Below, piece after piece: positions 50,661 to 52,549 of a stretch of 64,000 nt of DNA (its first letter is position 1; every line of letters begins with the position of its first letter). Made by a program: the position numbers and the translations under genes. Origin of the DNA: Candidatus Gastranaerophilales bacterium (GTDB lineage Bacteria; Cyanobacteriota; Vampirovibrionia; Gastranaerophilales; Gastranaerophilaceae); contig CALVDX010000003.1 of NCBI GenBank assembly GCA_944326425.1, positions 1 through 64,000 of the forward strand, written 5' to 3'. Under the pieces are notes generated by a model. It was given only the letters and a program-made list of their open reading frames with translations, did not search any database and was not told where the DNA came from.

Positions 50661-51170
50661 ATGTTATCAGAAAAAATGAACAAAGCATTTAATGACCAGA
50701 TAAATGCTGAATTATACTCGGAATATTTATATTTATCAATGAAGGCATATTTTGCGGATAAAAATCTGCAGGGATTTGTAAACTGGATGGATGTACAGGT
50801 TCAAGAAGAACACGCTCATGCAATGGGAATGTTTGATTACGTAATAGAAAGAGGCGGACGAGTAGAGTTAGGACAAATTGATAAACCGCGCCACGACTGG
50901 GAATCGCCATTAGAAGTTTTTGAACATGTACTGGAACATGAAGTATATGTTACATCACGTATTAATGCGCTAATGGATACTGCAGAAGAAGTTAAAGACA
51001 GAGCCGCATTATCATTCCTTGATTGGTATTTAAAAGAACAGGTAGAAGAGGAATCAAATGTCGGCGGAGTACTTGCGACATTAAAACTAATAGGTAATGA
51101 TACACAAGCTTTGTTTATGCTTGATAAAGAATTAGCAGCAAGAACATTTGTTGCGCCGGTTATCGGATAA
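50661..51170 (+). CDS. ftnA: Ferritin
   Basis: 169 residues. The bacterial non-heme ferritin pattern is complete: NDQINAELYSEYLYLSM (about 10-26), WMDVQVQEEHAHAMGMFDY with the ligand Glu and His, and the later EQVEEESNVGGVL. It stores iron as a 24-mer in the cytoplasm. Strong ribosome site (AAAGGAG). A rubrerythrin and carbonic anhydrase elsewhere in the window fit an anaerobe handling iron and peroxide. Confidence 0.95.
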   Translation: MLSEKMNKAFNDQINAELYSEYLYLSMKAYFADKNLQGFVNWMDVQVQEEHAHAMGMFDYVIERGGRVELGQIDKPRHDWESPLEVFEHVLEHEVYVTSRINALMDTAEEVKDRAALSFLDWYLKEQVEEESNVGGVLATLKLIGNDTQALFMLDKELAARTFVAPVIG

Positions 51171-51188
51171 TTATATATATTTGATATA

Positions 51189-51217
51189 TTGACAAACATA
51201 CTTGTTTGTGTAACTAT
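51189..51217 (+). promoter_or_regulatory. Promoter with overlapping operator-like palindrome
   Basis: TTGACA (51189-51194) lies 17 bp from a weak -10 (AACTAT, 51212-51217). Its spacer is filled by a perfect inverted repeat ACAAACA-TACT-TGTTTGT (51192-51209), a typical dimer-binding operator position that would occlude RNA polymerase. Confidence 0.5.
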
Positions 51218-51267
51218 TTGAATATGAGATACACAAATATACATTTAAATAATAATTCTTGGTGGCG

Positions 51268-51345
51268 CCTGTAATTAGTACAGGTTGCTTTATAAAATTC
51301 TTGATAAAAGTAAACCTGTACAGAAAATGTTCAGGTTTATTTTTT
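51268..51345 (+). promoter_or_regulatory. Four-segment transcription attenuator
   Basis: Segment 1 CCTGTA (51268-51273) can pair with segment 2 TACAGG; segment 2 GTACAGGTT (51278-51286) pairs perfectly over 9 bp with segment 3 AACCTGTAC (51313-51321); segment 3 AAACCTG also pairs with segment 4 CAGGTTT (51332-51338), followed by T6, making a terminator (stem AAACCTG-T-ACA / TGT-T-CAGGTTT, loop GAAAA). The 2:3 and 3:4 pairings exclude each other. It ends six bases before the ribosome site of the gene at 51362. Confidence 0.65.
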
Positions 51346-51361
51346 AGTCAAGGAGAAAATT

Positions 51362-52549
51362 ATGTCAGTCAGTTTAATAAATACATTATCCAACCCCTTA
51401 AAAACAGCATCAAAATTTGTATCGTATCAGGAAAGTGCATCAGGTTTGTCAGCATCCAGACTTATTCAGGATACCGGCACCTGCCTTGCGCCTAAAGTTA
51501 CGTTTTCAAGAAGTAAAGAAGATTTAGCTGAAAATATATTTTTAGAATTATCCGAAAATGCTATTGTGTACCTCGGGCCGGCTGTACTTGGCGAAAAAGT
51601 TGCAAGAAAAATCTTTTCAAAGGGGCTCAATAATCAGGAAAAAGAACTTGTGGCTAAATCATTCAAAGAACTGAGCGGAATGCCCTCAAAGATAAAAGGG
51701 AAAATAGTTCCCATAAAAGCAGCCATCGCACTTTCTACAATGCTGATTCCTCTTGCGGAATTTTCTTTAAGTTACTTCAAGAACTTATTTACACTAAAAG
51801 TTTTCAATAAGAGTGATTTTCAAAATATAGCCTCATTAGAAAAGAACGAAGAAGATAAAGAGCAGCAAAAACATGTAGAAAAGAGCGCAAAACAAAAAAT
51901 CGGACTAGCAGGAACAGTGTATGGAGCCCTTCTAGGATTGAGCGTATTAATGGCAGCAAAGGGGAATAAGTCTAATACATTACAAAAATTAAGCGAGTTT
52001 ATAATTGCACCGGGTGATAAATTATTTAAAAACAATACTAAAAGAGCAGGTTTTGTAAACAGATACTTTAGTCAGGATTTTAATTCAGAGAACGGGAAAC
52101 TGGCAATGAGCAAGGGACAGCTCACAGCATGCGTAGGGATTGGCGGATTGGGATACTTTGGATCTTCCGCAGACAGGGGTAAAGAAAATCTGTTAGAAAC
52201 GGCTTCACGCTTTCCGCTTATTGGTTTTTACATAATAACAGGCGGTGAACTTTTTGACAAAGGTTTTAAAAAACTTTTAAGCAAGCTTGGCTGCTGCAAA
52301 GACGTTATCAACAAAGATTACAGCTCGCCAAGCTTTAAGGAACTGGAAACAAAGGCAGCAGAACTTGCAAAATCAAGGAATACAAATATTACAAAAGAAT
52401 TCAAAAAACTTGCAGGGCAAAAAGTTGTAGTAGCAGGCGTCCCATATCTTTTTGGAATAGGGATTATGGGCTTCTTTGTTGCAGGTATGACAAACTATTT
52501 TACGAGAAGAAGGCACAAAAACTTTATTAGGCAAGAAAATAATATTTAA
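51362..52549 (+). CDS. Hypothetical multi-spanning membrane protein
   Basis: 395 residues, no recognised family. Hydrophobic segments at about 65-80, 112-135, 180-200, 265-280, 292-312 and 355-375; a charged linker rich in Lys/Glu (about 155-178); a Cys pair near 325 (LGCCKD); basic C-terminus (RRRHKNF). Ribosome site AAGGAG directly after the attenuator. Style resembles the unknown membrane proteins at 9.5 and 41.5 kb. The regulated leader suggests expression responds to a specific signal. Confidence 0.7.
   Translation: MSVSLINTLSNPLKTASKFVSYQESASGLSASRLIQDTGTCLAPKVTFSRSKEDLAENIFLELSENAIVYLGPAVLGEKVARKIFSKGLNNQEKELVAKSFKELSGMPSKIKGKIVPIKAAIALSTMLIPLAEFSLSYFKNLFTLKVFNKSDFQNIASLEKNEEDKEQQKHVEKSAKQKIGLAGTVYGALLGLSVLMAAKGNKSNTLQKLSEFIIAPGDKLFKNNTKRAGFVNRYFSQDFNSENGKLAMSKGQLTACVGIGGLGYFGSSADRGKENLLETASRFPLIGFYIITGGELFDKGFKKLLSKLGCCKDVINKDYSSPSFKELETKAAELAKSRNTNITKEFKKLAGQKVVVAGVPYLFGIGIMGFFVAGMTNYFTRRRHKNFIRQENNI

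Follow-up and report, generated by a model that had tools for sequence, protein, structure and literature searches.

A probable Trp-codon transcription attenuator upstream of an uncharacterised membrane protein gene in Candidatus Gastranaerophilales

RESULTS

Features of the leader region

In the window (the whole 64,000-nt stretch of DNA analysed here) the gene for an uncharacterised membrane protein is preceded by a promoter, a short ORF with tandem Trp codons, four RNA segments with the potential to pair with one another and an intrinsic terminator, the stem of which (−16.1 kcal/mol) is followed by U6 (Table 1). The stop codon of the leader ORF (51272-51274) is located within segment 1. All four segments had been noted in a preliminary description of this DNA and were found where it had placed them; folding bore out the pairings it had proposed. 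These mutually exclusive pairings, 1:2, 2:3 (antiterminator) and 3:4 (terminator), make up a set of the trp type.

Table 1. Features of the attenuator locus (positions in the window)
Feature	Position	Strand	Basis
Promoter: TTGACA (51189-51194), 17-nt spacer, AACTAT (51212-51217)	51189-51217	+	Sequence; TTGAC spacing in Trp leaders
7-bp inverted repeat ACAAACA-TACT-TGTTTGT (N4 spacer)	51192-51209	.	'Operator' of the preliminary description; not conserved
Leader ORF MRYTNIHLNNNSWWRL*, 16 codons, probably leaderless	51224-51274	+	ORF reading; comparison with homologues
Tandem Trp codons UGG UGG (regulatory codons)	51260-51265	+	ORF reading; homologues
Segment 1, GCCUGUA (DNA GCCTGTA), overlapping the last leader codons and the stop	51267-51273	+	Sequence; folding
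Segment 2, GUACAGGUU (DNA GTACAGGTT)	51278-51286	+	Folding; comparison
Segment 3, AACCUGUAC (DNA AACCTGTAC)	51313-51321	+	Folding; comparison
Segment 4, CAGGUUU (DNA CAGGTTT, 51332-51338, then A-T6), and U run of the intrinsic terminator	51332-51345	+	Sequence; folding
Shine-Dalgarno sequence AAGGAG of the structural gene	51350-51355	+	Sequence
Structural gene: 395-aa polytopic membrane protein, zero Trp, without known family	51362-52549	+	Sequence; family and fold searches

To represent the states of the ribosome we folded the RNA that the ribosome leaves free, with its leading edge assumed at 13 nt. The leader without a ribosome folded into 1:2 and 3:4 at −27.3 kcal/mol, as compared with −13.8 kcal/mol for shuffled sequences (sd 2.7; z = −4.9). 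With the ribosome stalled at either Trp codon the 2:3 pairing formed and the terminator did not (−17.5 kcal/mol), while with the ribosome at the stop codon the 3:4 pairing formed (−16.1 kcal/mol); under the assumed 13-nt edge, segment 2 is computed to be free in the former state and masked in the latter. Since this folding reproduces the textbook switch, a low level of charged tRNA-Trp should turn the gene on. The preliminary description had read the region as a four-segment attenuator in front of an uncharacterised membrane protein, which stands, but had overlooked the leader ORF with its Trp codons, and it is this ORF that names both the signal and the mechanism. In place of iron, redox state or a metabolite, which had been suggested as conditions to vary, the tandem Trp codons point to tryptophan as the signal.

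Promoter and start of the leader ORF

Because the −10 hexamer ends 6 nt upstream of the leader ATG, transcription is expected to start at the ATG itself. The TTGAC motif was found exactly 35 nt upstream of the leader ATG in 28 of the 87 Trp leaders and within 2 nt of this distance in 31 (0.8 expected); none of these 31 leaders has a Shine-Dalgarno-like sequence, as against 43 of the 56 others. No such arrangement was present in the 44 Met leaders described below. About two thirds of the orthologues lack the leaderless arrangement, most of them having a Shine-Dalgarno sequence instead. Judging by these promoter distances and by the missing Shine-Dalgarno sequence, the leader ORF in the window and those in about a third of Trp leaders are probably translated from a leaderless start. 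A precedent is the trpL attenuator of Sinorhizobium meliloti (rnTrpL), whose transcript begins with the start codon ATG of its leader ORF (PMC7298713).

The inverted repeat in the TTGACA promoter was present as described, though the operator role assigned to it did not hold up beyond the genus. The repeat is perfect in two genomes, that of the window and one congener (locus L005), and the other leaderless promoters match it at 1-6 of the 7 positions. It is the sole match in the window when up to two mismatches are allowed, with 0.63 expected by chance, so that it is not rare; we rejected the operator, and a function of the repeat appears doubtful.

A different element, the perfect 22-nt palindrome TTGTATCGATATATCGATACAA, was observed just upstream of the leader ORF at 12 Trp-leader loci of one genus, g25 (L092, L098, L099, L101, L102, L133-L135, L139, L153, L186 and L187). 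It begins 31-37 nt upstream of the leader ATG, where it replaces the leaderless promoter, and is a likely operator for an uncharacterised regulator. The palindrome does not occur in the 64,000-nt window. A ferritin gene (PF00210) is situated directly upstream of the locus, at 50661-51170 of the window; it was seen beside the locus only within the genus and is probably unrelated to the attenuator.

Trp and Met leaders at homologous loci

Of 99 relatives, 43 have a homologue of the 395-aa protein, and a profile search detected homologues in 181 of 382 genomes from the class; the family is spread over Candidatus Gastranaerophilales, to which most of the named homologue records belong, and other families of the class. 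Among the loci read, a leader ORF with WW was found at 87 homologous loci from Candidatus Gastranaerophilales and related families, in the forms WWRL*, WWRGLV*, WWxLxxxTGxLSWQ*, WWWLQxxAGTFCWR* and similar (asterisk, stop). Two orthologues (L019 and L022) have one Trp only (SWRSLT). Many Trp leaders have a longer ORF that carries a second Trp close to its end (TGxFCWR* or TGxLSWQ*, in L020, L023-L031, L034 and similar), which perhaps serves as another stalling point.

At 44 paralogue loci the leader ORF is rich in Met, e.g. MAMMMGMQMMMCMPVLTCRM*. In these leaders an antiterminator arm, A, is located inside the ORF after the Met codons, and the A:B pairing is in competition with the terminator, B:C; one switch logic is thus put to use for two amino acids. 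By their sequences these are apparent methionine attenuators, and a literature search with the phrases tried found no methionine attenuator.

Coordinated change of the paired segments

The stems show almost no variation among the 20 closest leaders, where counts of pairs are uninformative; compensatory change becomes visible across clades only. The covariation in relatives that the preliminary description had called for was seen between clades and not within the closest one. Between clades the segment 2/segment 3 pairs are swapped whole: GTACAGGT/ACCTGTAC, TAACTACCC/GGGTAGTTA, TTAACTGCC/GGCAGTTAA, AGTGCAAGC/GCTTGCACT and others. In 57 of 86 leaders the 2:3 helix was matched by no more than 5 of 100 shuffles. 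The complementarity of segments 2 and 3 taken from the same Trp leader was 1634, versus 1325 for cross-species combinations (sd 30.5; maximum 1438 in 2000 permutations, which ignore relatedness); for the Met leaders the values were 916 and 680 (sd 21.5; maximum 775, the permutation again ignoring relatedness). A covariance model of the leader run against 59 genomes gave matches only upstream of genes of this family, apart from two weak chance ones inside or after unrelated genes.

The structural gene product

The preliminary description had assigned no known family to the gene, and searches agreed: the protein matched no Pfam or NCBIfam family and had no convincing sequence relative in PDB, scattered weak matches being all that was seen. 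None of these three sources gave a sequence match to a known transporter family. The protein has six hydrophobic segments, three strong and three weaker. Charged or polar residues that are invariant or almost so (E62, K119, N141, E279, R283 and K354) lie within these segments or next to them. Its structure was modelled with pLDDT 88.5 and pTM 0.84; a Foldseek search with the model returned nothing below an E-value of 0.001 (best 0.097), and the best hit of the VIA fold search (Z 6.2, rmsd 4.0, 151 aligned residues) was within the background for helical models. Homology, fold and neighbours gave no link between the structural gene and Trp metabolism.

The absence of Trp from one protein is no evidence in itself, because 7 of the 26 long ORFs in the window are Trp-free too. 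The 83 Trp-leader proteins of the window's family contain 6 Trp in 33,693 aa (0.018%), whereas Trp accounts for 0.67% of the Met-leader paralogues and 0.50% of the window ORFs; this contrast over 83 sequences is evidence of Trp avoidance, though the sequences are related. Conversely, Met makes up 0.73% of Met-leader proteins versus 1.34% of Trp-leader proteins (window, 1.89%). A lower Met content of the Met-leader proteins recurs in the distant families f9 and f15 (p = 0.009, from few sequences; here as elsewhere the composition p-values overstate independence, the sequences being related), where Trp content does not differ. Cys and His contents also differ between the Trp-leader and Met-leader groups.

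Protein tree and host physiology

Within the order, the Trp-leader proteins group in a single clade (support 100/100) amid Met-leader proteins, while those of family f9 fall in a separate clade (99/96) along with some members lacking a recognised leader. In this tree, taken as unrooted, well-supported branches require the Trp label to have changed five times or more, so the pairing with Trp or Met arose or switched more than once.

No trpB gene scored over the cut-off in the host genome, and the host is probably a Trp auxotroph. Within the family trpB is lacking in 24 of 32 genomes with a Trp-leader gene versus 14 of 28 that have no such gene (p = 0.06); over the whole order the association has p = 0.016, neither value being corrected for relatedness. 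Genes metH and metE over the cut-off were missing from nearly all searched genomes of the window's family. In eight trpB-bearing genomes no plausible WW leader was found near trpB.

DISCUSSION

Mechanism and alternatives to it

The locus is very probably a trp-type, ribosome-mediated attenuator of transcription that senses charged tRNA-Trp and controls a single gene. This reading comes from sequence and comparison: the leader ORF, its Trp codons, the logic of the segments, their coevolution, the dedication of the leader to one gene family, Trp avoidance in the product and the lack of a detected trpB in the host. Transcription would begin with the A of the leader ATG or a neighbouring nucleotide, and translation of the leader ORF would follow. 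With sufficient Trp the ribosome would reach the stop codon and cover segments 1 and 2, upon which the 3:4 terminator would form and transcription would end near 51345. With charged tRNA-Trp scarce, the ribosome would stall at UGG UGG and mask segment 1 alone, letting 2:3 pair, so that the terminator would be blocked and the downstream gene transcribed. It is such switching that we infer for the living cell, its product being a starvation-induced membrane protein devoid of the scarce amino acid.

A response of the opposite sign would follow if the leader encoded an arrest peptide like TnaC, with free Trp stalling the ribosome and inducing the gene. A short leader ORF containing Trp, in a host that is probably a Trp auxotroph, would suit such a peptide, which we still regard as highly improbable: two or three adjacent Trp stand at a fixed place just upstream of segment 1 and no other peptide motif is conserved, no Pro is conserved at the stop, and the segment logic suits stalling by starvation. 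The Met-rich leaders of equal design also indicate codon sensing, and the Trp-free product agrees with starvation. Slightly less credible again is that the terminator only ends an independent small RNA or the ferritin transcript, the leader structures being by-products. The promoter and the terminator do flank ∼120 nt, and attenuator RNAs can act in trans, as in the case of S. meliloti rnTrpL (PMC7298713); but the conserved feature is a Trp-Trp ORF linked to this gene family, and the ferritin neighbour is seen in the genus alone, whereas the attenuator is kept far beyond it. The preliminary description had itself named the small RNA as a competing explanation, and conservation of the Trp-Trp ORF together with the terminator in 87 homologues ran against it.

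A T-box or another tRNA- or metabolite-binding riboswitch has the smallest probability of all. The slight resemblance of GGTGGCGCC to the T-box core is offset by the fact that these letters are Trp-Trp-Arg codons, and a stem I does not fit between the promoter and segment 1. Neither a T-box nor a riboswitch was matched at gathering score in the window or at 15 homologous loci, and the Rfam models of the trp, thr and other operon leaders gave no gathering-score match either. The best sub-threshold match, Thr_leader with 25.1 bits (cut-off 55), is itself a ribosome-mediated attenuator.

Possible role of the protein family

A biosynthetic role is unlikely, because the inducing condition would be shortage of an amino acid that the cell is itself unable to synthesise. 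The likeliest role that we would propose for the Trp-controlled protein is acquisition of Trp, and for the paralogues acquisition of Met, by cells unable to make the amino acid; that the family serves acquisition of a scarce amino acid has, in our estimate, somewhat less than an even chance. More tentative is the fuller version, in which we infer uptake: the members would be amino-acid-specific uptake systems of auxotrophs, each controlled by an attenuator whose leader peptide matches its substrate (Trp, Met and, once, Ile/Leu).

The main rival to acquisition accepts the attenuation but gives the protein a general role in starvation or in the envelope, not in amino acid import, and we put it only just short of an even chance. 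No fold was matched, transporter homology was not seen, and there are only three strong and three weaker hydrophobic segments; moreover, members under Trp and Met control have originated repeatedly in one family, as if one function could be called up by scarcity of any amino acid. Against this, separate Trp and Met members coexist in many genomes, which suggests amino-acid-specific functions. If the uptake reading is true, it would include methionine attenuators seemingly undescribed so far, and leader specificity would have switched repeatedly while the proteins lost the very amino acid that they serve to acquire.

Relation to known attenuators

In E. coli and its relatives trpL has a leader ORF with tandem UGG codons, the 1:2/2:3/3:4 pairings and a stop codon placed so that finished translation releases the terminator, and leaders of thr, his, leu, ilv and phe genes work by the same logic. 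The locus described here shares the three features of trpL; it differs in that the gene controlled encodes a membrane protein of no known family rather than Trp biosynthesis enzymes, in a host without a detected trpB, in that the stop codon lies inside segment 1 of an apparently leaderless ORF, and in that the leader has no gathering-score match to any Rfam leader. The paralogues use Met codons, unlike the thr, his, leu, ilv and phe leaders. With S. meliloti rnTrpL the locus appears to share the start of the transcript at the leader ATG, although that attenuator controls trpE(G) and belongs to another phylum (PMC7298713). The avoidance of a scarce amino acid recalls the low cognate bias described for amino acid biosynthesis proteins, in which proteins required during starvation likewise avoid the amino acid in short supply (PMC4209129); here it concerns a membrane protein family and is reciprocal, for Trp and Met, between paralogues.

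The mechanism is of a known kind; what is new lies in the target family, in the phylum of the host, in the apparent methionine attenuators and in the probably leaderless leader. Ribosome-mediated attenuation would be extended to Melainabacteria and to a non-biosynthetic gene, with apparent methionine attenuators added. For the role of a large orphan family the leader provides a strong clue that can be tested; the hosts are gut bacteria known mostly from MAGs and lacking key Trp and Met biosynthesis genes, and the family offers a case of leader specificity and amino acid make-up of the controlled protein changing together.

Other observations on the family

An operon with metabolic genes was considered and rejected, a co-directional follower within 80 nt being possible at just 8 of 50 loci. 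In family f9 a second family member follows the WW-leader gene in tandem (L108, G128:C8; L109, G115:C24). Shorter divergent homologues (∼320-370 aa), almost free of Trp and without a recognisable leader, occur at L053, L055, L056, L110, L115, L116, L120 and L121. One paralogue, L051 (G018:C33), has the Ile/Leu-rich leader ORF MITSLNIAIISLIIISLLDSKRLLYCECEI* and a terminator, the leader extending from 177 to 84 nt upstream of the gene. By sequence this is a single switch of leader specificity; the gene is nested among Met-leader genes, and its protein, with 16 Met, is not Met-poor.
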